Origin: Ignavibacteriales bacterium
GTDB lineage: Bacteria; Bacteroidota; Ignavibacteria; Ignavibacteriales; Melioribacteraceae
Reading direction: 5' to 3'
Assembly: GCA_026390795.1 (NCBI GenBank)
Contig: JAPLFG010000003.1
Coordinates: forward strand, 868,001 to 932,000
DNA: 64,000 nucleotides
The position numbers and the translations under genes were made by a program. Shown here piece after piece: positions 22,258 through 34,685 of the stretch. The stretch's first letter is position 1. Each line of letters begins with the position of its first letter. The notes under the pieces were generated by a model. That model was not told the DNA's origin. It worked only from the letters and a program-made list of their open reading frames with translations, and made no database searches.

Positions 22258-23895
22258 ATGGCAAACGCAATATTCAATTTAACCTTACCCGATAATGAAG
22301 AAGTAAAATCTTACGCGCCGGGTTCACCCGAAAGAGAATTGCTTAAAGCAAAACTCGCCGAAATGGAAAATCAGCAGATTGATATTCCTCTTATAATCGG
22401 CGGCAAAGAGATTAGAACAGGCAATACAGGAAATATTGTAGCGCCTCATAATCATAAAAAAATTCTCGGCAAATATCATAAAGCGGGTGAAAAAGAAATC
22501 CGCATGGCAATTGATTCCGCAATGGAAGCATATAAAATTTGGTCCGTTATGGAATGGCAGGATAGAGTCGCAATTTTTTCCAGAGCCGCCGATATGATAA
22601 CTCTAACCGATTGGCGTTACACACTTAACGCGGCAAGTATGCTTGGTCAAAGTAAAAATGTTCATCAGGCGGAGATTGACGCTGCATGCGAGACAGCTGA
22701 CTTTTTCCGTTTCAATATTTATTACGCAAATAAAATTTATCAGGAACAACCACCACATTCCCCTCATGGAATGTGGAATAGAATGGAATACAGACCGCTT
22801 GAAGGATTTGTATTAGCAATTGCCCCGTTCAACTTTACAACTTTCAACGCGAATCTTCCGGGCGCTCCGGCAATTATGGGAAATGTCTCGATCTTGAAAC
22901 CGGCAGCTACAAGTGTCTATTCCGCATATTATATTGTTAAATTACTTGAAGCAGCAGGATTACCTCCAGGCGTAATTAATTTTCTTCCAGGTCCCGGTTC
23001 TACAATCGGCGATATTATATTCAACGATAAAAATTTTGCCGGACTCCATTTTACAGGAAGCACTCCGGTATTTCAGCAGATGTGGAAAACAATTTCAAAT
23101 AATCTTCCCAAGTATAAAAGTTATCCAAGAATTGTAGGAGAAACCGGGGGAAAAGATTTTGTCTTCGCTCATAAGAGTACCGATGTAAGATTACTTGGTG
23201 TATCTTTAATACAAGGCGCGTTTGAATATCAAGGTCAGAAATGTTCCGCGGCTTCGCGAGCTTATATTCCAAAATCGATTTGGCCGGAAGTAAAAGAATA
23301 TCTTGTAAGTGAATTGAAAAAATTGAAAACTGGCGATGTAACTGATTTTTCAAATTATAATAACGCGGTGATTGATCAAGCGGCATTTGATACAATCACA
23401 GGTTACATCAAATACGCAAAGGAATCGAAAGAAGCGGAAATAATCGTCGGTGGAAAGTTTAACGATAAGATTGGTTACTATATTAATCCAACGGTTATTG
23501 TTACAACCAATCCAAAATTTAAAACGATGGAAGAAGAAATTTTTGGTCCGGTGCTAACTGTTTTTGTTTATGAAGACAACAAATACGAGGAGACTCTTCA
23601 TCTGTGCGATGAGACTTCTCCCTACGCGTTAACGGGCGCAATATTCGCTCAGGACAGACTCGCAATTATTACCGCAGATAGAATATTAAAACATGCGGCG
23701 GGTAATTTCTATATAAATGATAAACCAACAGGTGCGGTAGTTGGACAGCAGCCGTTTGGCGGCGCACGCGGCAGCGGAACGAATGATAAAGCTGGAAGTT
23801 TTTTGAATTTAGTCCGTTGGGTATCGCCGAGAACTATTAAAGAAAATTTTGTGGCGAGAAAAGATTTCCGTTATCCGTTCATGCTTGAAAAATAA
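22258..23895 (+). CDS. L-glutamate gamma-semialdehyde (P5C) dehydrogenase, ALDH4A1-type
   Basis: A 545-residue NAD-dependent aldehyde dehydrogenase. N-terminal YAPGSPERELLKAKL, QAEIDAACETADFFRFN, GFVLAIAPFNFT, catalytic Cys329 in EYQGQKCSAASR, Glu295 in GETGGKD, and C-terminal GQQPFGGARGSGTNDKAG are all close to the mitochondrial ALDH4A1 family. It oxidises glutamate semialdehyde (from proline or HypD-made P5C) to glutamate; the same family takes 4-hydroxyglutamate semialdehyde to 4-hydroxyglutamate in hydroxyproline catabolism. It is the common endpoint of both routes in this island. Separated by 266 bp from the cupin gene, so it may have its own promoter. Confidence 0.93.
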   Translation: MANAIFNLTLPDNEEVKSYAPGSPERELLKAKLAEMENQQIDIPLIIGGKEIRTGNTGNIVAPHNHKKILGKYHKAGEKEIRMAIDSAMEAYKIWSVMEWQDRVAIFSRAADMITLTDWRYTLNAASMLGQSKNVHQAEIDAACETADFFRFNIYYANKIYQEQPPHSPHGMWNRMEYRPLEGFVLAIAPFNFTTFNANLPGAPAIMGNVSILKPAATSVYSAYYIVKLLEAAGLPPGVINFLPGPGSTIGDIIFNDKNFAGLHFTGSTPVFQQMWKTISNNLPKYKSYPRIVGETGGKDFVFAHKSTDVRLLGVSLIQGAFEYQGQKCSAASRAYIPKSIWPEVKEYLVSELKKLKTGDVTDFSNYNNAVIDQAAFDTITGYIKYAKESKEAEIIVGGKFNDKIGYYINPTVIVTTNPKFKTMEEEIFGPVLTVFVYEDNKYEETLHLCDETSPYALTGAIFAQDRLAIITADRILKHAAGNFYINDKPTGAVVGQQPFGGARGSGTNDKAGSFLNLVRWVSPRTIKENFVARKDFRYPFMLEK

Positions 23896-23951: not shown

Positions 23952-24896
23952 TCAATGACCTAACCCGTGCAGCATTAAAATCGAGTGTTCCAGAATTTTT
24001 GTAATCTCGCTTAAATAATCCTCAACAGCTTTAACGCTCCCGGGAAGAGAAAAAATGAGAGTCTGATTTTTCACGCCGAATAATGATCTGCTCAAAATTG
24101 CCGAAGGCAGTTTATCAAAATACTTCAACCGAATCTGATCCATAATTCCCGGCACAAGTTTATCGACAAATTTTTCTACAACATCGGGCGTAATGTCGCG
24201 CGGTCCGATGCCGGTACCGCCGGTTGTAAAAATTATATCAATATTATCATCTATGGACTTTTGTAATTCGTCTCTCAATTTTTTTTCGTCATCGGGAATT
24301 AATGAATAGTAAAATTCCGTATGCCAGCGTTTATCTTGAAAATATTCTTCTAACAACTCTTTTATTTTAGGTCCGCTCTTATCTTCGTAATCGCCGGCAC
24401 TCGCTCTATCGCTGAGAGTAATAATTTTTATTTTCAACGGTCGCAGTCGATATTCAATCGGATCACCTTTATAAATTATTCCGCCCTTTACAACACGGGT
24501 GAATATTCCCGATTTCGGCATTACACATTTTCCGACTTCGACAAAAATCGCACAGCCGTCACCGTGACACATTTTCCCGATCTGAGTTAATTCCAATTCA
24601 ACTTCACCGATTTTGAACCGGTCCAGAATGCCGGTTTTTTTGAAATCAATTCCGCGGGTTGTAATATTCTCAGCAAATTCACCCGGCTGGAATTCTCTTT
24701 TATCAGCATCTAATAAGGAAAATTTTTCAATGTCTTCTTGTGCAAGCATGCTTACTTGTCGGTGCCATTTGCCTGAATGAGCATCTCCGACAATTCCTCT
24801 TTCATTAACTTCAACTTTTTCTCTTGGAGTTTTAATTGTACCTTTTTCTTCGGAGATGTTTAGAGAGACTACGTGTATATTTGTTGTGTCGTTCAT
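23952..24896 (-). CDS. MOSC domain fused to MogA/MoaB (molybdopterin adenylyltransferase)
   Basis: A 314-residue fusion. Residues about 1-150 are a MOSC domain (NERGIVGDAHSGKWHRQVSM, QPGEFAENITTRGI, and the Cys-bearing TQIGKMCHGDGCAIF), a fold used in Mo-cofactor sulfur or metal handling. Residues about 152-314 are a MogA/MoaB domain (IITLSDRASAGDYEDKSG, FTTGGTGIGPRDITPD, SLPGSVKAVEDYL), which adenylates molybdopterin before metal insertion by MoeA. It is last in the moe/moa operon. Fusion of the two is consistent with one-protein handling of the pterin; MOSC-MogA joins occur elsewhere, so this is not unique. Confidence 0.9.
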   Translation of the reverse strand: MNDTTNIHVVSLNISEEKGTIKTPREKVEVNERGIVGDAHSGKWHRQVSMLAQEDIEKFSLLDADKREFQPGEFAENITTRGIDFKKTGILDRFKIGEVELELTQIGKMCHGDGCAIFVEVGKCVMPKSGIFTRVVKGGIIYKGDPIEYRLRPLKIKIITLSDRASAGDYEDKSGPKIKELLEEYFQDKRWHTEFYYSLIPDDEKKLRDELQKSIDDNIDIIFTTGGTGIGPRDITPDVVEKFVDKLVPGIMDQIRLKYFDKLPSAILSRSLFGVKNQTLIFSLPGSVKAVEDYLSEITKILEHSILMLHGLGH

Positions 24897-24954: not shown

Positions 24955-25413
24955 TTAAATCTCTTCGTCATTTTTTATTTTTTCAATCAATCTGATTTTT
25001 TCAATCTTCATCTTCTTATCAACCGCTTTGCACATATCATAAACTGTTAACAGTGCCGTAGAAACCGCAGTGAGTGCTTCCATCTCAATTCCGGTTTGAC
25101 CTACGCATTTTGCAAAACTTTTTACTCGTACACCCTTCTCAACTATTTCGCATTTCACATCGAGCTTTGTAATTTGCAATGGATGACATAGAGGAATCAG
25201 TTCTGATGTTTTTTTCCCTGCCTGTATTCCCGCAATTTCCGCAACGGTCAGCACATCTCCCTTCATCATTTTATTTTTTTTGATGAGCGTGATTGTTTCA
25301 GGCTGAAGACGAATAAAACCTTCCGCGCTTGCACTTCTGAATTGAATTTTCTTTGCTGTTATATCAACCATATCGGCGCGTCCTTTAGAATCAACATGGG
25401 ATAGTTTTTTCAT
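24955..25413 (-). CDS. moaC: Cyclic pyranopterin monophosphate synthase
   Basis: A 152-residue MoaC with the typical opening LSHVDSKGRADMVDI, LIPLCHPLQITKLDV with catalytic His, and GIEMEALTAVSTALLTVYDMCKAVDK. It turns the MoaA product into cyclic pyranopterin monophosphate, the first pterin intermediate of the Mo/W cofactor. Length is normal for the family. It begins directly after moaA (next base) and is therefore co-translated with it. Confidence 0.95.
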   Translation of the reverse strand: MKKLSHVDSKGRADMVDITAKKIQFRSASAEGFIRLQPETITLIKKNKMMKGDVLTVAEIAGIQAGKKTSELIPLCHPLQITKLDVKCEIVEKGVRVKSFAKCVGQTGIEMEALTAVSTALLTVYDMCKAVDKKMKIEKIRLIEKIKNDEEI

Positions 25414-26223
25414 TCATCCTCCGATATTATAAAACTTGTTGGAAGTGCTGCTGAGTCCGCATTCCGGTTTTTGTTCCAAAGCAAATTGAACGGCTTTAGA
25501 ATAGTCTGTTTTTCGAATGTTTACAGAGATGTCGCTGAACAAACATGGTTTTAAAAAGCCGTCGCTCGTTAAACGCAGACGGTTGCAGTTTACACAATCT
25601 CCACCGCTGCCGCCATGAACAATTCCAAATTCACCCTTCTCAATATCCATTTCATAAATGAATCTCGCAATTAAACCGTTTTCATCACAATATTTTTTTA
25701 CCGCCACCGCATCCGGCTCATCAATTGATTTTTTGATAACACAATTTATTTTGATTGGAGAAAGTCCCGCATTAATTGCGGCGGCAATTCCATCAAACAC
25801 ATTTTGAATATCGCCGCCTCTCGTAATCAATTTATATTTTTCCGGATTAATACTATCGAGACTGATATTCACCCTCATCAATCCAGCTTCTTTTAATTCA
25901 TGCGCACACTTTGGAAAAAGAATTGCGTTAGTGGTCATTGAAAGATCTTCAATTCCATTTATATCGGCGAGCATATTGATAAGATTTACTGTTCCTCTTC
26001 TTGCAAGCGGTTCCCCGCCAGTAATTCGGACTTTCGTAATTCCCATTTGCACTGCGACCTTGGTGAATTCAGTTATCTCTTCAAAAGAAAGAATTGAACC
26101 GTGATCAATCAATTTGATTCCTTCTTCAGGCATGCAGTAAACACATCGAAGATTGCAACGGTCGGTAACACTTATTCGCAAGTAATTTATTTTTCTGTTA
26201 AATCTGTCTAACATCAACAACAC
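25414..26223 (-). CDS. moaA: Compact GTP 3',8-cyclase
   Basis: A 269-residue radical SAM enzyme; usual length is 320-340. The first cluster motif is C-x3-C-x2-C in TDRCNLRCVYC, the second is C-x2-C-x13-C in CVNCNRLRLTSDGFLKPC, and the protein ends in the needed IGG. About 45 residues normally between the barrel and the second cluster (after RFIYEM) are missing, so it is a shortened but apparently complete enzyme. It starts the pterin pathway from GTP. The start overlaps the moeA end by 26 bp: GTG at 26223 follows AAGGAAGG closely, and the ATG at 26214 is an alternative. Confidence 0.9.
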   Translation of the reverse strand: MLLMLDRFNRKINYLRISVTDRCNLRCVYCMPEEGIKLIDHGSILSFEEITEFTKVAVQMGITKVRITGGEPLARRGTVNLINMLADINGIEDLSMTTNAILFPKCAHELKEAGLMRVNISLDSINPEKYKLITRGGDIQNVFDGIAAAINAGLSPIKINCVIKKSIDEPDAVAVKKYCDENGLIARFIYEMDIEKGEFGIVHGGSGGDCVNCNRLRLTSDGFLKPCLFSDISVNIRKTDYSKAVQFALEQKPECGLSSTSNKFYNIGG

Positions 26224-27373
26224 TGCCTTCCTTTAACTCATTGACTCCAACTGGTATAGAAGTAATTCCATCTGCAAACGCCAGAGCATTAATATGAGCC
26301 GAGCCATGATATTCAACTGGTTCTATTTTCCCTTCCGGATTTATTTTTACCGGAATCCATGCGAGGCGTTTATTTTTTTTCCGCTTTATCTCTTTTGCCA
26401 ATTGCATCTTGAATATTCTTGTATGATCATTCAAACCCATCATTCCGGCAAGAAATTCCTTAACAAAAATTTCGAAACAGACGAATGAAGAAACCGGATT
26501 GCCCGGCATTCCGAAAACAAATCTATTTCCATCTCTGCCGAATACCGTTGGCTTTCCCGGTTGAATTGAAACCTGATCGAAAAGAATTTTAAAACCATTT
26601 TTAACTAGAACAGCGGGAACCAAATCGAAATCTCCCATTGAAACTCCGCCGGTTATAATTATAAGATCGTTTTCATCTTTAGCTTTAATGATGGCTTTAC
26701 TTATCTCGTCTTCCGTATCGATTGCTATTCCATAATATTTTGGTTCGCAGCCGAACTGAAGGCATTGAGCCATAAGCTGATACGAGTTTGTATTTCTAAT
26801 CTGCGATTTTTTAGGAAATAAATACGGTTCAACAATTTCGTCTCCGGTTGCAATTATACCGATCTTCGGTTTTTTGCTGACCAATGGATTAACGTGCCCG
26901 CATAGTGCAAGCGATGCTATTTCTTTTGCTGTAATTCGCGTTCCTACTGAAACTAATTTCTGTCCGAGCAAAACATCTTCACCAATCACACAAATATTAT
27001 TAGAAGTTTTTTCGCTTTTAAATTTTATTTTATTTTCGGAAAGTTCTTCAACTTCTTCGATGATTATTACACAATCGGAGCCATCCGGCATCATTGCGCC
27101 CGTCATAATTTTTGCGCATTCATTTTTCCCGATCTTCTTTTGCGGTTGATATCCGGCCTGAATTATCTCAACCACATTAAGTTCATTATGAAGATCTGCT
27201 CTCCGGCACGCGTAACCATCCATTGCCGATTTATCGAAAGGCGGCATGTCAAGATCGGAAATGACGTCTTCACGCAAAATCCGGTTTATACTTTCTTTGA
27301 AATCAACTTTTTCTGTACCGAGCAGATATTTATTTTGTCTTATGATCTCTATTGCTTCTTCGAGCGGAATCAT
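26198..27373 (-). CDS. moeA: Molybdopterin molybdenumtransferase (metal insertion)
   Basis: A 391-residue MoeA with the family segments MPPFDKSAMDGYACR near residue 42, KIMTGAMMPDGSD, the MPT-binding ITGGVSMGDFD and FGMPGNPVSSFVCFEIFV, plus a C-terminal domain. It inserts Mo or W into adenylated molybdopterin. It shares a transcription unit with the transport and moa genes, and the aldehyde oxidoreductase nearby argues that tungsten is the metal of interest. The stop overlaps the moaA start. Confidence 0.95.
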   Translation of the reverse strand: MIPLEEAIEIIRQNKYLLGTEKVDFKESINRILREDVISDLDMPPFDKSAMDGYACRRADLHNELNVVEIIQAGYQPQKKIGKNECAKIMTGAMMPDGSDCVIIIEEVEELSENKIKFKSEKTSNNICVIGEDVLLGQKLVSVGTRITAKEIASLALCGHVNPLVSKKPKIGIIATGDEIVEPYLFPKKSQIRNTNSYQLMAQCLQFGCEPKYYGIAIDTEDEISKAIIKAKDENDLIIITGGVSMGDFDLVPAVLVKNGFKILFDQVSIQPGKPTVFGRDGNRFVFGMPGNPVSSFVCFEIFVKEFLAGMMGLNDHTRIFKMQLAKEIKRKKNKRLAWIPVKINPEGKIEPVEYHGSAHINALAFADGITSIPVGVNELKEGSVVDVRQI

Positions 27374-27388
27374 TATTCTTTCCTTGCC

Positions 27389-27416
27389 GTAGAGACGGGA
27401 TATATCCCGTCTCTAC
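27389..27416. repeat. Perfect 28-base palindrome, GAGACGGGA family
   Basis: GTAGAGACGGGATA followed by its exact reverse complement, between moeA and the secreted protein gene. It shares its arms with the palindrome at 6091-6112. It may attenuate read-through, but there is no T-run. Confidence 0.85.
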
Positions 27417-27421
27417 AAAAT

Positions 27422-28429
27422 TTATTTGATTATCAGAAACTCAATTTTCTCTACCGATTTCACATTCCGGTCAACAAAAAAATCTGGTGTTGCGAATAAA
27501 TTAAACTTTCCATCTTCAGAGGAACCGTTTTTTTCAATGAGAAGAAAATCATTCATATCGTTTCTGTTTATTATCTCACTAAGACTGTAAGTTACTCGGT
27601 AACCATCTTTAGCAGAAACACAGAGTATCGTGCTGATGCATTCATTCATATCAAATTTTACATTTTTTTGCAGAACCGATCCAAAAACGAATCCTTCAAC
27701 ATCATCTACTCCTTTCCATCCTCTTCCGTGTCCGTAACCAATGCCTCTGAATTTTCTTGTCTCAACTCCAATCACATCTGTAATTACAAAATTATTTTCT
27801 CCGTTTACAATTTTTATTTCAGGAGAAAAAGTTTCTTTCACTCTTTCTTTAGAATACTTTCCGACAAAAGATTTTACTGTAATCCTTACGGGATTAGCTA
27901 TGATTCTAAAATTAAAAGCATCGTAACCGCAGATTATTTGAGGAACTTCAGGTAAAGGCCATTTCATTTTCATTTTACCCGGATTAATGGCACTTACGCT
28001 TTTAGTTATTATCGCATTAAAATTATTCTTTGAATAAAATAATTCTCCCCAGCTGAATACTGTTTTTTCCCCTTTATCATTTTCAACAATAACATATAGA
28101 TCAACAGCGGGCTTGAATTCTTCTTCATTGGTTTTTTTAACTTTCTTTGTGTTTATTATATCAAAAAGAGAATATCCGCTTACAAAGTAGGAACCAATAA
28201 ATTTATTCTTATCAGTTCCGTAAGTAAGATCTTTCATCGGAAAGCAATGCAACGGAAGAGATGTTAAATCGACTGCACCCGGATTTTCAACTTCTCCATC
28301 GACAATAATTGATTTGATTGAAAATTCTTTTAGTTCAGAATCATCAAAAAAACTTGGTGTACTCTCACTCTTATCCTGGGCAATCATGGGAAAAGCAAAC
28401 AAAATCATTATTACAAAAATCTTTTTCAT
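27422..28429 (-). CDS. Secreted protein with two sulfite-oxidase-fold-like domains
   Basis: A 335-residue protein with a signal peptide (about 1-18, ending MIAQ). Two related halves follow: about 37-175 (VDGEVENPGAVDLTSLP, GYSLFDIINTKKVK, IVENDKGEKTVFSWGELF) and about 185-335 (GFVFGSVLQKNVKF, VSAKDGYRVTYSLSEIIN). The DGY...SL motif and the xDLL-like helix resemble the molybdopterin-binding fold of sulfite oxidase/YedY, but I see no Mo-ligating Cys in the usual position. It lies between the transporter and moeA in one operon, so a periplasmic role in pterin or oxyanion handling is inferred. No characterised equivalent is known to me. Confidence 0.65.
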   Translation of the reverse strand: MKKIFVIMILFAFPMIAQDKSESTPSFFDDSELKEFSIKSIIVDGEVENPGAVDLTSLPLHCFPMKDLTYGTDKNKFIGSYFVSGYSLFDIINTKKVKKTNEEEFKPAVDLYVIVENDKGEKTVFSWGELFYSKNNFNAIITKSVSAINPGKMKMKWPLPEVPQIICGYDAFNFRIIANPVRITVKSFVGKYSKERVKETFSPEIKIVNGENNFVITDVIGVETRKFRGIGYGHGRGWKGVDDVEGFVFGSVLQKNVKFDMNECISTILCVSAKDGYRVTYSLSEIINRNDMNDFLLIEKNGSSEDGKFNLFATPDFFVDRNVKSVEKIEFLIIK

Positions 28430-28452: not shown

Positions 28453-29499
28453 TTAGTTATAAATTTTACATGCGGATGCTTTAAAATTTATCCAGACTTC
28501 TTTACCTATTTTCAGTTCAAGCGAGTTCATTGCTTCCGATGAGATTAGCGAGATTAATTCGCAACCGATATCAATTGTGACTTCAATTCCAATTTTTGCA
28601 CGTGCAATATCGGTAATTTTACCTTTGAAATGATTACGCGCGCTTCCCCTCTCTACAGAATTGGAAATGTTAATTTCTTCCGGCTTGATAAGCAAGAACG
28701 CATCTCCATCGGCGGTATCGGTTAAAGAAAATATTTTAATTCCGTTTGTTAAAAATTCTTTTAAATCACTTTGCTCAATTGTTTTTAGATCTCCACGAAG
28801 AAAATTCTTTATTCCGATAAACTGAGCTACAAATTCCGATTTCGGATGTTTAAATATTTCTTCCGGTGATGCCACATGAACTATTTCCCCTTTTTCCATT
28901 ATACCGATTTTACTGGCAAGAGAAACGGCTTCTTCATAGTCGTGCGTTACATGAATAATAGTAATTCCATCCCGGTTTAATTTCCTCAACAATACACGCA
29001 ATTCATTTTTAGACTTTGGGTCGAGCGCAGATAAAGGTTCATCCAGAAGGAAAAGATCATTTCCTGAAGCTAGACTTCTTGCAAGCGCAACACGTTGATA
29101 TTCGCCGCCGGAAAGGGTTTCCGGAAAACGTTCAAGCTTATCATCTACACCGGTTTGTTCGGCAGAAGTTAGAACTTTTTCTTTAATATTTTTTTCTTTT
29201 CTGCTGCGGAGCGGATAAGCTATATTTTCAAAAACCGTTAGATGAGGGAATAGATCGGCGTCCTGATAAACAATACTTATGTTTCTCTTCTGAATTTTTT
29301 CAGCAGATATTTTTTGACCGCGTAAAAATATTTCACCGGAACTTATTTTTGTTAATCCAGCAATCGATTCAAGAAGCAGACTTTTCCCGACACCTGAAAT
29401 TCCAAGAATGACAAAGTAATCTCCTTTGTTAACTCTGAAATTGACATTCTTCAATTCAAAATTGCCGGCTTTTAATGATATGTTTTCAACAACGAGCAT
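28453..29499 (-). CDS. wtpC: Tungstate/molybdate ABC transporter, ATPase
   Basis: A 348-residue ATPase with Walker A GISGVGKS (33-40), signature LSGGEYQRVALARSLA, Walker B LFLLDEPLSALD and the switch His in IIHVTHDYEEA. A C-terminal TOBE/Mop-like domain (about 255-345) probably binds the oxyanion for feedback, as in ModC. Its start codon directly follows the permease stop. It powers uptake of tungstate or molybdate by the system encoded upstream. Confidence 0.9.
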   Translation of the reverse strand: MLVVENISLKAGNFELKNVNFRVNKGDYFVILGISGVGKSLLLESIAGLTKISSGEIFLRGQKISAEKIQKRNISIVYQDADLFPHLTVFENIAYPLRSRKEKNIKEKVLTSAEQTGVDDKLERFPETLSGGEYQRVALARSLASGNDLFLLDEPLSALDPKSKNELRVLLRKLNRDGITIIHVTHDYEEAVSLASKIGIMEKGEIVHVASPEEIFKHPKSEFVAQFIGIKNFLRGDLKTIEQSDLKEFLTNGIKIFSLTDTADGDAFLLIKPEEINISNSVERGSARNHFKGKITDIARAKIGIEVTIDIGCELISLISSEAMNSLELKIGKEVWINFKASACKIYN

Positions 29500-30285
29500 T
29501 TAATTTTTCTTCTTTATCAATCTGAGTGTAATAAAAATTAGTAAACAAACCGTAACGAATACAACCGCGACCGGGACGGAATATTTTAATCCATATGAAG
29601 TGAATCTTTCAAATATTAGAACCGGTGCGGTTTGAGGATTGTACGCAACTATTATTACCGCTCCAAACTCACTCATACCCCGTGCCCACATTAGAATAAA
29701 TCCGGATAAAACTGAACGCCATGCAAGTGGAAGAGAGATCGTAAAAAAAACTCTTATTGGTGAAGCGCCCAAGGTTAATGCGATTTTTTCGAGACGTTCC
29801 GGAACAGCTGCAAAACCGTCGCGTGCTGCATTAATCAAAAATGGAATGCTTACAAATGCCATTGCTAAAATTATTCCCGCTGGGTTACCGATAAATTTAA
29901 TTCCAAATAATTCCCCGGCTTTTCCAAGAAAACTATCTCTTGTTATAATTCCCAACACAGCAATACCAGCTGCCGAATGAGGAATGATTATCGGGAGATC
30001 AATTATTCCATTTACAATACCTTTAAGAGGAAAATTTTTTCTTGCAAGAAGATATGCCAGAGGAACGGCAAGAAATGAAAACAAAATTGTCCCGGCCATC
30101 GAAGTCCATAAACTCAACCAGATACTGTTTCGCACTTCTTCACTTCCAACAGCTTCATTCAGTGATCCAAGAGAAGTGTTTAGATACATACCCGCCAACG
30201 GGGCAATAATAAAAAGTAATAACACACCGCCGAGAAATGCAAAAACCAAATTAAGAAGCGATTTATTTTGAAAATATTTTTCCAT
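29500..30285 (-). CDS. wtpB: Tungstate/molybdate ABC transporter, permease
   Basis: A 261-residue inner-membrane protein with about six helices and the BPD permease loop near the C-terminal half (EKIALTLGASPIRVFFTISLPLAW), where the EAA motif docks on the ATPase. AVPLAYLLARKNFPLKGI and DLPIIIPHSAAGIA match ModB/WtpB permeases. It lies between the binding-protein and ATPase genes with a 5-bp gap and no gap respectively. Metal specificity follows from the binding protein. Confidence 0.92.
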   Translation of the reverse strand: MEKYFQNKSLLNLVFAFLGGVLLLFIIAPLAGMYLNTSLGSLNEAVGSEEVRNSIWLSLWTSMAGTILFSFLAVPLAYLLARKNFPLKGIVNGIIDLPIIIPHSAAGIAVLGIITRDSFLGKAGELFGIKFIGNPAGIILAMAFVSIPFLINAARDGFAAVPERLEKIALTLGASPIRVFFTISLPLAWRSVLSGFILMWARGMSEFGAVIIVAYNPQTAPVLIFERFTSYGLKYSVPVAVVFVTVCLLIFITLRLIKKKN

Positions 30286-30290
30286 TTAAA

Positions 30291-31247
30291 TTATTTTTTC
30301 TTCAAGGCATATTTTTTCAAATCGTCCGGCAATTTATTGTATGCGTCGCACACCGAGGGGATCACGGTCGGCTGTCCAAACTCTTGTATAACTTTCAGAC
30401 CTTTTTTCTTATCCATAAGGTAATGAATGAATTTTTTTGCCAGAGAATAGTTAGGCGAGTTTTTAGGAATTGTAACACCGTAAACCATTGATGAACCTTC
30501 TTGATAAATTTTTTCTCCAGGTTTCTTCCCGTTCAATTCTACAGAAACCTGTTTGTAATAATTTTCAAGTTCTGCTCTTTTCAAATTTATTTTATCGGGC
30601 AATATCAAAAATTTTAATCCATGCTGTTCCGCAACCGATCTGTAAAGAAAAATGTAATCAAGCTCTCCCTCTTCAAGAAGCGCGAGAAGGTCTACCTCCT
30701 TCGGACGTATGTATTCATGATCTTTTTTGATCAGCTTTTCTGCCAATCCCTTTTTGTTATAAAATATTTCTGCGAGTTTCATAGTTAATATAGTTCTATA
30801 GCCGCATGGATCGGCATTGGGATCAGCCCGTCCAACAGAAATATTTTTATCAAGTAGAATTTCGAACCAGTTTTTTTGATTAATCTCGTTAGCTCTGCGG
30901 GATTTATCAGTGAAAACAATTGCCATTTCATTTGTAGCAAATTTCAAGTTCCAATCTGCGTATTGTGGAATTAACAACTGATCGATCACCATATAATCTG
31001 CCGAAGCAAAAATATCGCACGGTTTCTTCAATTCGGAAATTTTTCTGGCGCATTCACGGCTTCCGGCAATTTCTTTTAGTACTTCAATGCCGGGATTCTC
31101 CTTCTTGAATCCGTTAATAATTTTTTCGAAAGGAACAGTTAAACTTCCCGCATGGAAAATTATTAACTGGTTTTGATTTTGAGCATTTACAGATCCGTAA
31201 ATCAATAAAAATAGAAAAAATGCTTTTTTTAGAGAAAAAACATTCAT
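30291..31247 (-). CDS. wtpA: Tungstate/molybdate-binding protein (WtpA type)
   Basis: A 318-residue periplasmic binding protein. The Met at 31247 is used because it begins a clear signal peptide (VFSLKKAFFLFLLIYGSVNAQ) and follows AAAGGT; a longer frame from 31325 lacks such a signal. IIFHAGSLTVPFEKIINGF, SADYMVIDQLLIPQYADW and VGRADPNADPCGYRTILTM are characteristic of the archaeal-type WtpA family, which in Pyrococcus binds tungstate very tightly. That makes tungstate the likely substrate, especially with a tungsten-type aldehyde oxidoreductase divergently encoded 170 bp away. Confidence 0.9.
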   Translation of the reverse strand: MNVFSLKKAFFLFLLIYGSVNAQNQNQLIIFHAGSLTVPFEKIINGFKKENPGIEVLKEIAGSRECARKISELKKPCDIFASADYMVIDQLLIPQYADWNLKFATNEMAIVFTDKSRRANEINQKNWFEILLDKNISVGRADPNADPCGYRTILTMKLAEIFYNKKGLAEKLIKKDHEYIRPKEVDLLALLEEGELDYIFLYRSVAEQHGLKFLILPDKINLKRAELENYYKQVSVELNGKKPGEKIYQEGSSMVYGVTIPKNSPNYSLAKKFIHYLMDKKKGLKVIQEFGQPTVIPSVCDAYNKLPDDLKKYALKKK

Positions 31248-31417
31248 TTGATCAAATACCTTTATTTTTGGCGAGCAAAGTCTAACAATTAATATTCTTT
31301 CATACAACTTTCCAAAATCGTTCATCTAAAGTGCGTTGGGTTTCAAGTGCCCCTTTCTTATATTTCAAAAGACTTTTTTAGCTTTTTATAAAAAATAAAA
31401 GATTTGGAGAATTCCTA

Positions 31418-33601
31418 ATGGAAGTTTTGGAAATTTTAGAACAGCGTAAACTCATAAAAGAATTTAAATATGAAATAACCCCGATGGATAAAGGTTATTC
31501 AGATAAAACACTTTATATAAATCTCTCTGAGAATGAAATAAAAATTAAAAACGTTCCTTTAGAGATGAAGGAAAAATTTATTGGCGGAAAAGGATACGGT
31601 TTAAGATATCTCTGGGATGCAACAACACCGGAAACAAAATGGGATGACCCGGAAAACGAAATTGTAATCTCGGGCGGACCGGTTTGCGGAATTACACAAT
31701 ATTCCGGAACCGGGAAATCAATTGTAGTTACTATTTCACCGCAAACTGATTCGGTAATGGACAGTAATGTTGGCGGCTGGTTTGGACCGTTTTTAAAACT
31801 GAACGGTTTTGATGCAATTGAGCTTCAAGGCAAGGCAGAGCGCGATGTAATTATAATTCTTGACGGACGCGATGGGACAGGTAAAATTAGAGTTGAAGAA
31901 GCTCCGGCAGATCCTGTAAACAGCCACCACTTAGCAGATATGTTAACTGAAATGTATTGTCCTACTGAACAAGATAAAATGAAAATTGCAGTTGTATCAG
32001 CCGGTGCGGCGGCAGACCATTCTTTGATCGGTATGCTCAACTTTAGTTTTTACGACAAGAGAAAAAAACGTTCAAGACTGAAACAAGCCGGGCGCGGCGG
32101 AATTGGAACCGTATTCCGTAATAAAAAAATTAAAGCAATTGTAGCTCTTGTTGCAAAAGTTGAAAATGATATGAACCATGTGGTTGATATGAAATCAATC
32201 ATTGAACGCGGACAGCGTTTCAATAAAGAAATGAAAGAGCTTGATGATACACAATGTGAAATGAGAACAAAAGGAACGGCACATTTAGTTGAAGTGATGA
32301 ATGATTACGATCTCCTTCCGGTAAATAATTTTAAATTCGGCAGTAACGAAGCGGTCGTTGGGAACATCGACGGCAATACATGGAAAAAACAATTTGAGCA
32401 AGGCTCATTTGACGGATGCTGGTTAGGATGCAACATGAGCTGTGCTAAAGGAGTAAACAATTATATTCTTCGCACCGGTCCTTTTAAAGATGAAAGCGTA
32501 ATTGTTGACGGGCCTGAATATGAGACTGCTGCAGGCATTGCCGCAAATTCCGGAATCTTCAGTACTGATTATACGATTGAAGTAAATTTTTATTGCGATA
32601 CCTACGGCATCTGCACTATCACATGGGGAACCACAGTAGCATTCTTAATGGAATGTTTCGAAAACGGAATTCTAAATTTAGAAAGAACCGGTGGATTGAA
32701 ATTAAATTTTGGTAATGCAGATAACGCGATGGAAATGCTTCACCAGCTTGGACGCGGAGAAGGTTTTGGAAAAACTGCAGGACTTGGCGTTCGCAGACTA
32801 AAAAAATTATTTGCAGAGAATGGTTGGGGCGATCCTCAATTCTTACAAGATATTGGAATGGAGAACAAAGGGCTTGAGTATTCTCAATACATGTCTAAAG
32901 AATCGCTTGCACAGCAAGGCGGATATGCAATGACAAACAAAGGTCCTCAGCACGATGAAGCATGGTTAATCTTTATGGATATGGTTAACAATCATATTCC
33001 TACATTTGAAGATAAAGCTGAAGCACTTCATTACTTTCCACTTTTTAGAACATGGTTTGGTCTTGCGGGTTTTTGTAAACTTCCATGGAACGATGTTGAA
33101 CCGAAGAACAATGCAGAAACTTCCGAACCGGCTAAAGTGCCGGAACATGTTGATAACTATATTACAATTTACAAAGCAGTAACAGGCCGCCCGTTTGATA
33201 ATAAACGGTTAATTGAAGATTCTGAAAGAGTATATAACTTTCAAAGAATGTTCAATCTTAGAAGAGGCTACGGTGTGCGTAAATGGGATGCTCAGCCATA
33301 TAGAGCTGCCGGTCCGGTTACAGAAGAAGAATATTTATCGCGCCAGGAAAGATATGATTCTCAGCTCAAAGAGTTGATGGGGATGAATCCGGAAGGAATG
33401 AGTTTAAAAGAGAAGATGGCGGCGCACAGAAAATACAGAGAAAATAGATACGAACAATTGCTTGATGCTGTTTACAAAAGAAGAGGTTGGGATGAAAACG
33501 GTGTTCCAACATTGGAGCATTTGAAAAAACTTGGAATGAATTTGCCTGAAATGGTTGAGTTAAGAACTAAATATCAAAAAGGTGAATGGAAGTTGAAATA
33601 A
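31418..33601 (+). CDS. Tungsten-type aldehyde:ferredoxin oxidoreductase
   Basis: A 727-residue member of the AOR family, binding a tungsten bis-pterin and one 4Fe-4S cluster. N-terminal FIGGKGYGLRYLW, ISGGPVCGITQYSGTGKS, QAGRGGIGTVFRNKKIKAI, and the pterin/metal block D-x-x-G-I-C (DTYGIC, 394-399) are visible. The cluster Cys are Cys334, Cys338, Cys342 (C-x3-C-x3-C rather than the usual C-x2-C-x3-C) and a distal Cys553 in GFCKLPW. It oxidises aldehydes to acids with ferredoxin as acceptor, or the reverse. TTTGGAG precedes the ATG. Exact substrate unknown. Confidence 0.92.
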   Translation: MEVLEILEQRKLIKEFKYEITPMDKGYSDKTLYINLSENEIKIKNVPLEMKEKFIGGKGYGLRYLWDATTPETKWDDPENEIVISGGPVCGITQYSGTGKSIVVTISPQTDSVMDSNVGGWFGPFLKLNGFDAIELQGKAERDVIIILDGRDGTGKIRVEEAPADPVNSHHLADMLTEMYCPTEQDKMKIAVVSAGAAADHSLIGMLNFSFYDKRKKRSRLKQAGRGGIGTVFRNKKIKAIVALVAKVENDMNHVVDMKSIIERGQRFNKEMKELDDTQCEMRTKGTAHLVEVMNDYDLLPVNNFKFGSNEAVVGNIDGNTWKKQFEQGSFDGCWLGCNMSCAKGVNNYILRTGPFKDESVIVDGPEYETAAGIAANSGIFSTDYTIEVNFYCDTYGICTITWGTTVAFLMECFENGILNLERTGGLKLNFGNADNAMEMLHQLGRGEGFGKTAGLGVRRLKKLFAENGWGDPQFLQDIGMENKGLEYSQYMSKESLAQQGGYAMTNKGPQHDEAWLIFMDMVNNHIPTFEDKAEALHYFPLFRTWFGLAGFCKLPWNDVEPKNNAETSEPAKVPEHVDNYITIYKAVTGRPFDNKRLIEDSERVYNFQRMFNLRRGYGVRKWDAQPYRAAGPVTEEEYLSRQERYDSQLKELMGMNPEGMSLKEKMAAHRKYRENRYEQLLDAVYKRRGWDENGVPTLEHLKKLGMNLPEMVELRTKYQKGEWKLK

Positions 33602-33934: not shown

Positions 33935-34525
33935 CTACTTATCCTTACCTAATAATATTTCCAAAACTACATTCGCCATCATATTAGCAACGACTCCAAC
34001 TCTCGGTGCGAGTGGCGGATCTTGATCGCTAGTTTCGGAAATATGATCTCCAACCATATAAAGATTATCATGACGTTCGATTTTGATCAATTCGCTTCCG
34101 CCCCAGCCCGCAAGACCAACGCCGCATACGATCGGTTTGTTCGGAAATTCCGATAAAACAGTTTCAACTATCATCTCTTTCATTTCGGCAAGATCGAAAG
34201 CTTCAACAATTACATCTCCTTCTGCGAAAAGTTTGGTAATCTCAATTGGAGTAAGTTTAATAATATGAGCTTCCACTTCAATTGACCGGTCAATTCTATT
34301 GATATTCTCTTTGAGAGCAGCCGCTTTAAATTTTCCGATCTGGTCGGAGAAAAAATATTGACGGTTAAGATTATTTTCTTCGATTTTATCATAATCTACT
34401 ATTATCAACTTGCCAACTCCAACACGGGCAAGCGCAACCGCCGCATTTGAACCTAAACCGCCGCATCCGGCAATACAGACACATTTGTTTTTTAACCGAA
34501 GCCTTATTTGATTGATATTCATCAT
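33935..34525 (-). CDS. ThiF/MoeB-family adenylyltransferase
   Basis: A 196-residue E1-like enzyme that activates the C-terminal Gly of the sulfur carrier by adenylation. It has the nucleotide site CIAGCGGLGSNAAVALARVGVG, then IVDYDKIEENNLNRQYF and DVIVEAFDLAEMKE. It is short for MoeB (about 250) and near the size of the short ThiF group; the paired Cys-x-x-Cys zinc motifs of MoeB are absent. The ATG at 34525 is preferred over a TTG three codons upstream; no strong ribosome site decides it. Confidence 0.88.
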   Translation of the reverse strand: MMNINQIRLRLKNKCVCIAGCGGLGSNAAVALARVGVGKLIIVDYDKIEENNLNRQYFFSDQIGKFKAAALKENINRIDRSIEVEAHIIKLTPIEITKLFAEGDVIVEAFDLAEMKEMIVETVLSEFPNKPIVCGVGLAGWGGSELIKIERHDNLYMVGDHISETSDQDPPLAPRVGVVANMMANVVLEILLGKDK

Positions 34526-34685
34526 TAATGGCAATTATTAAGTAAAATATAATTAAAACCCAATCGTGCAACAAAATTGAATATGCTTAGTTCGCTTTTA
34601 CTTTTTTGCTTTTTATCTTGAATTAGTTCACCTGAAAGTATTAGATTCAATTTAGAACAACAAAGTACTTTAGACCCGAGGCTAT

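Follow-up and report, generated by a model that had tools for sequence, protein, structure and literature searches.

The tungsten gene cluster and X

The window, the whole stretch of 64,000 nucleotides that was analysed, contains a minus-strand series of genes in the order wtpA, wtpB, wtpC, X, moeA, short moaA, moaC, and a MOSC-MoaB fusion (Table 1). For convenience, X denotes the 335-residue protein that is the subject of this study, half 1 and half 2 its two domains (win_h1 and win_h2 in the searches), and X1 the family of its small single-domain relatives. Gaps of 23 bp and 48 bp separate X from wtpC on its upstream side and from moeA on its downstream side, matching its placement between a transporter and moeA in the first-pass annotation.

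Table 1 Features of X and of the surrounding gene cluster, in positions of the window
Feature	Coordinates	Strand	Basis or remark
X, secreted-looking protein with two SUOX-like domains, 335 aa	27422..28429	-	ATG ORF, homologues, purifying selection
Signal-peptide-like N-terminus MKKIFVIMILFAFPMIAQ, residues 1-17, probable cleavage before Q18	28379..28429	-	By eye
Half 1, residues 37-195, SUOX-like, R175 kept but D and Y of DGY lost	27845..28321	-	hhalign, HMM, alignment
Half 2, residues 196-335, SUOX-like with D275-G276-Y277 and R321	27425..27844	-	hhalign, HMM
D275-G276-Y277 of half 2	27599..27607	-	Alignments
Invariant Y232-G-H-G235, near the Mo-ligating Cys site of many relatives	27725..27736	-	Exact register gap-dependent
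wtpC, tungstate ABC transporter ATPase	28453..29499	-	NCBIfam WtpC best match, 350 bits, below 440 cut-off
wtpB, permease	29500..30285	-	NCBIfam WtpB best match, 287 bits, below 340 cut-off
wtpA, tungstate-binding protein	30291..31325	-	Above both NCBIfam WtpA cut-offs
moeA	26198..27373	-	Pfam MoeA_N, MoCF_biosynth, MoeA_C
Short moaA, 269 aa, internal gap of ~46 aa	25414..26223	-	
moaC	24955..25413	-	
MOSC-MoaB/Mog fusion	23952..24896	-	
Tungsten aldehyde ferredoxin oxidoreductase (AOR/WOR), divergent from wtpA	31418..33601	+	PF01314, PF02730
ThiF/MoeB-like adenylyltransferase	33935..34534	-	

Among the importer models run on the genome, WtpA alone scores above its cut-off; ModA and TupB match the wtp genes below theirs. 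The genome also holds further molybdopterin-family matches (PF00384, PF02738). The proteins behind these matches may share this importer, which weakens the idea that X is dedicated solely to AOR: it could serve others as well. The ThiF-like neighbour agrees with an arrangement described in a WOR survey, in which a single-subunit WOR adjoins worX and thiF genes (PMC13328260); a text search of that survey finds no mention of WtpA. A search of the window with three receptor references finds no TonB-receptor gene.

Other features of the cluster can be noted here. The MOSC-MoaB/Mog fusion is also present in the other listed wtp clusters, except one that is cut off (L011). The gap of ~46 residues in MoaA lies between the radical-SAM barrel and the retained C-terminal cysteines, and is seen in all seven aligned cluster sequences. 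In this genome, the MoaA model gives 240 bits, versus 78 for the second-best match. The short MoaA may be compact yet working. A 28-bp perfect palindrome, GTAGAGACG...CGTCTCTAC, is located at 27389-27416, between X and moeA. It occurs at six places in the genome, versus none for a reversed-pattern control, and resembles a small repeat family.

X is a real ORF under purifying selection. Four full-length homologues are 83, 69, 69, and 55% identical to it, and pN is 0.08–0.20 versus a pS of 0.53–0.79, a range similar to those of wtpA, wtpC, and moeA. Judged by eye, the N-terminus consists of a lysine pair followed by a hydrophobic run that ends in A|Q, and Q18 is invariant in all five full-length sequences. 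This signal-peptide-like start is consistent with the export signal proposed earlier, and X is probably exported to the periplasm.

Occurrence of X among related genomes

Among 79 genomes of the same family, wtpA is present in 11 and AOR in 12, with both in 11; these 11 genomes combine wtpABC with MoCo genes and a tungsten aldehyde oxidoreductase. X is found in six of the 79, all among the 11 with wtpA and AOR, and solely inside the wtp cluster. Conservation next to wtpABC, which the first-pass annotation had set as a check, therefore holds in every genome bearing X (6/6). X is not a fixed component of the operon, as 5 of the 11 wtp clusters are without it. Thus, X is an optional add-on that is present only in the wtp cluster.

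In the window and three other loci (L001, L002, and L003), X is located between wtpC and moeA; in L001 and L003, a P5CDH-like gene separates it from wtpC. In L010, X follows the MOSC-MoaB gene. In L011, the contig ends within X, leaving the downstream side beyond the contig end, and a TonB-dependent receptor gene (PF00593, PF07715) stands immediately before X and after the P5CDH-like gene. At the five wtp loci without X, moeA directly follows wtpC. AOR adjoins the wtp genes in all six X-bearing genomes. In the five wtp genomes without X, it is adjacent in two (G019 and G026), on a separate contig in two (G025 and G064), and ~80 kb off in one (G067).

The P5CDH-like gene that separates wtpC from X within the cluster is at L001 6259-7884, L003 5847-7472, and L011 2606-4231, and L001 and L003 carry another copy just outside the cluster. 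The aldehyde dehydrogenase at 22258-23895 of the window resembles these genes, and we take it to be a P5CDH. In the most distant cluster, a gene for a DUF116 protein is located directly downstream of X (L010 10269-11030).

Homology of the two halves to the sulfite oxidase family

X matches no Pfam family, its best NCBIfam match (E 0.048) is not relevant, and no relevant PDB sequence match is found. The sulfite oxidase family model PF00174 has no match across the whole genome of the window, X and its halves included. A search of the phylum with the X profile matches 16 of 395 genomes. Three rows are X itself, and 11 of the 13 distant rows are single-domain proteins of ~164–218 residues with export-like N-termini (by eye). 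The remaining two, transketolase-like L020 and peptidase-like L024, are chance matches by eye. PF00174 scores three of the relatives above its cut-off of 24 bits (L014, 30.0; L015, 33.5; L021, 26.3) and L012 and L013 below it. In all, nine of the 11 X1 proteins scanned pass this cut-off, with 26–53 bits.

The alignment of the 11 single-domain relatives found with the X profile (A3) aligns with each half of X separately, with hhalign probabilities of 97% for half 1 and 96.8% for half 2. The A3 profile matches 42 of 296 genomes, including X-bearing G000 and G065, and gives two separate matches in the X of the window, one in each half (E 1.4e-6 and 2.2e-5). Because A3 came from the profile of X, we built an HMM from five proteins as a less circular check. 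These are Pseudomonas, Caballeronia, Burkholderia, and Deinococcus proteins encoded on named plasmid records, and a tblastn search with X1 queries, themselves reached from X, retrieved them. Three of the five were scanned with PF00174 and give 42–53 bits. The five-protein HMM recovers win_h1 (E 2.6e-6) and win_h2 (E 6e-5), and its next match is E. coli MsrP at 0.004. It matches none of 904 control-region ORFs and none of 400 shuffled halves at E <= 10. Three partial- or odd-looking sequences (L077, L094, and L095) were left out of the family HMM. Viral contig scans for relatives to deepen the alignment found none.

Homology of each half of X to the SUOX family through X1 intermediates is well supported by these profile comparisons, in line with the sulfite-oxidase link proposed in the first-pass annotation. 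With a four-sequence input, AlphaFold2 gives a mean pLDDT of 34.5 for full-length X and 48.8 for half 2. Foldseek with the half-2 model (pLDDT 48.8) retrieves no match with E <= 0.001, and the best 50 of 213 matches include no SUOX protein. The top matches, staphylococcal superantigen-like proteins, have E >= 0.17 with a poor model and were disregarded, weighing neither way. Because the models are too poor (pLDDT 35 and 49), the SUOX fold proposed for X is taken from sequence homology.

Residues of the presumed pocket

Residue counts were made on 43 of 46 aligned relatives, with three excluded. The D of the D-x-Y motif is present in 43/43, the Y in 42/43, and a late Arg in 42/43. A Cys occupies the Mo-ligand column in 27 of the 43 and is absent in 16. 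In a subgroup of the single-domain relatives (L025-L029 and L063), Asn-His or Asp-His is found near this column.

Half 2 of X retains D275, Y277, and R321. Half 1 reads D-K-G-E at the DGY position and retains R175. The DGY motif, which had been assigned to both halves, is thus confined to half 2. In the alignment, the site of the Mo-ligating Cys lacks Cys in both halves, confirming the earlier impression that X has no clear Mo ligand. C167 is invariant and near the end of half 1, away from the Mo-ligand site, and half 2 has no Cys that is invariant across the five full-length sequences.

The two halves had also been described as related to each other. Direct comparison of half 1 with half 2 gives an hhalign probability of only 3.8, so the direct relationship is not borne out and the doubling is seen only through the single-domain relatives. 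A tree built from 37 domain sequences joins the two halves with only 69% support on long branches, which makes duplication and fusion of two lineages indistinguishable.

Gene context of the single-domain relatives

We obtained 42 X1 contexts (L025-L032 and L063-L096) and used 41, from 40 genomes; L096 has no X1 ORF and was left out. Of the 40 test genomes, 24 supplied the controls, which are 40 stretches at round coordinates. The Mo-linked categories are molybdate transport, ModE, MoCo synthesis, and nitrogenase. Mo/W/nitrogenase genes are located within 6 kb of X1 at 26 of the 41 loci versus none of the 40 control regions. Some of the reference proteins behind this count were drawn from the test loci themselves, and its gene categories were set after a first look. 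A TonB-receptor gene is located within 3.5 kb of X1 at 24/41 loci versus 1/40 controls. Fifteen of the 41 X1 loci are without a Mo/W/nif neighbour. Six of ten family groups have at least one linked locus. One family (f26) contributes 22 of the 41 loci, 14 of them linked, and the remaining 19 loci include 12 linked.

Nine plasmid records have an X1 match, and the contexts of five were examined. Pseudomonas aeruginosa CP109682 carries a TonB receptor, X1, moaA, one more gene, and narIJHG. Caballeronia sp. Lep1P3 carries X1, NifQ (PF04891), and a ModE-like gene. Deinococcus psychrotolerans carries modA, a TOBE protein, X1, and an ABC permease. In Burkholderia arboris, a ModE-like gene follows X1, and in Caballeronia NK8, a NifQ-like reading frame is seen by eye at the X1 locus. 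The first-pass annotation had looked to homologues beside wtp or mod genes elsewhere; X1 is indeed often near mod, moa, ModE, and nif genes, and a Mo/W gene neighbourhood is common to X, with its wtp cluster, and X1.

Two X1 relatives, L153 7965-8453 (Caballeronia) and L155 7947-8438 (Burkholderia), have no obvious signal peptide by eye, indicating that the X1 family is not strictly periplasmic. Both adjoin ModE-like genes, and L153 also adjoins NifQ. Judging from sequence, this branch is possibly cytosolic.

At two loci with modABC near, a MauG-type di-haem gene is located beside X1 (L088 7950-9053, by resemblance; L089 7970-9073, PF03150); the di-haem protein is a possible redox partner of its X1 neighbour. 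TauE/SafE-type permease genes (L025 7177-7911 and L026 9113-9862) adjoin a single-domain relative in MoCo clusters, and the substrate of the permease is possibly an oxyanion.

Discussion

X resembles PF00174 (Oxidored_molyb, the sulfite oxidase/MsrP fold) in the D-G-Y and Arg of half 2, and through the X1 proteins that pass its cut-off. It differs from PF00174 in having no score, two domains, no Mo-ligating Cys, and domains shorter than MsrP. X1 proteins are annotated as 'molybdopterin-dependent oxidoreductase' (e.g., WIK43853.1, WP_244817835.1, and WP_124874670.1). X shares their homologous domain and Mo/W context, but they are single-domain, most with a Mo-ligand Cys (27/43), whereas X is two-domain and Cys-less. 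Like the oxyanion-binding proteins WtpA and ModA, X is secreted-looking and encoded in the operon of WtpA, perhaps with the same substrate, but it belongs to another family. Since the cluster already encodes WtpA, X would act as an additional handler.

We propose, with moderate confidence, that X is an optional periplasmic accessory of the cluster for tungsten acquisition and W-pterin synthesis, which would capture tungstate/molybdate or a Mo/W complex for WtpA. Its ancestor would be a small domain of the SUOX family (PF00174, X1), often found beside molybdenum genes, that was duplicated or fused. An oxyanion or Mo/W complex would enter through the outer membrane. X would then capture tungstate/molybdate or the imported Mo/W complex in the periplasm, most likely the step at which it acts, and hand it to WtpA, before the ABC importer. 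Binding would take place in the old pterin/oxyanion pocket, mainly that of half 2, where D-x-Y and the Arg are kept, and half 1 may be structural. The bound species would be the oxyanion or a Mo/W-pterin. X is not expected to be a molybdoenzyme because the Mo-ligating Cys is absent. Metal handling is the most likely role because ModABC, ModE, TOBE, NifQ/NifB/NifN, the MoCo genes, and WtpABC share the metal, not the pterin.

X could instead be a PruR-like periplasmic sensor that binds a pterin, e.g., an intermediate or a breakdown product of molybdopterin, and reports on the state of the cofactor or pterin. PruR (PDB 7KOS and 7KP2) represents one Cys-less branch of the SUOX fold with a pterin-binding role and is reported to be a secreted protein with Asn102 and Tyr104 among the residues of the pterin site (PMC13259868). 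X likewise is secreted-looking, of SUOX ancestry, and Cys-less, and half 2 may share the D/N-x-Y of the presumed pocket. When a single-domain relative is aligned with PDB 7kom, weakly (E 0.14), D275-x-Y277 of half 2 is positioned opposite N-D-Y. A profile of a single-domain subgroup also matches 7kom weakly (E 0.061), and half 1 has no such motif. The D-G-Y of half 2 may thus correspond to Asn102/Tyr104. The retained D-x-Y, as the likely equivalent of the pterin-contacting pair, favours a pterin ligand, and X is housed in a pterin-cofactor gene cluster. However, PruR has one domain of ~170 residues, versus two domains and 335 residues in X, and a DcpA/DTB partner gene. The genes adjoining X are transport, MoCo, P5CDH-like, TonB-receptor, and DUF116 genes, with no DcpA/DTB regulator directly beside it, on all sides seen (the downstream side in L011 lies outside the contig). 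Moreover, the neighbours of X1 include nitrogenase and molybdate-transport genes, which need no pterin, and X has no Trp at the guessed counterpart of PruR Trp160. We regard a sensor of this kind as unlikely, though the likeliest of the alternatives.

It is improbable that the family is a minimal redox enzyme. On this reading, Cys-bearing relatives would use MoCo to convert oxyanions or sulfur-containing Mo/W species, and X would be an inactive or altered copy. The Cys in the Mo-ligand column of 27 of the 43 relatives, the MauG-type di-haem protein adjoining some of them (L089 by Pfam, L088 by resemblance), and a TauE/SafE permease beside the L012 and L013 relatives are consistent with catalysis. 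In contrast, both halves of X and the other 16 relatives are without the Cys, and the X/X1 domains are much shorter than MsrP (334 residues).

Cofactor-binding folds get reused as chaperones, and X might chaperone the W-pterin of AOR or act as its insertion factor, in keeping with the position of X between wtpC and moeA in the window and with the AOR gene adjoining the wtp cluster in each X-bearing genome. MoCo synthesis is cytoplasmic, and AOR has no export signal by eye, whereas X looks exported; in addition, five of the 11 genomes with AOR and wtpABC do without X. Such a role is very improbable. It is scarcely credible that X has an unrelated fold and resembles SUOX by chance, as the missing direct Pfam or relevant PDB match, the low-confidence models, and the absence of SUOX proteins among the best 50 of 213 Foldseek matches might suggest, because the X1 profiles find each half separately where background and shuffled sequences give none, and the A3 profile picks out both halves within the genome.

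Returning to X as an accessory that captures the metal for WtpA, the TonB-receptor genes near X1 suggest, tentatively, a wider reading. X and X1 might be the periplasmic arm of an unrecognised TonB-dependent Mo/W acquisition system, comprising import by the receptor, capture by the SUOX fold, and passage to WtpA/ModA, with X as its doubled, tungsten-dedicated form. A Cys-less SUOX-family form that has two domains and belongs to a tungsten cluster, and the association of X1 with TonB receptors and Mo/W genes, are apparently undescribed: neither is described in those parts of the open-access literature that our search covered. No mention of X1 occurs in passages of papers on moeA in Flavobacterium IR1 (PMC12758843), Tub (PMC11980592), and P. 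aeruginosa molybdenum (PMC9171197).

If the TonB-dependent reading is true, a cofactor domain of a molybdoenzyme family has been turned into a handler of the metal itself, and Mo/W uptake in some Gram-negative cells extends beyond the inner-membrane ABC importers. Small proteins now named as enzymes ('molybdopterin-dependent oxidoreductase') gain, from their gene context, a testable role in Mo/W acquisition.
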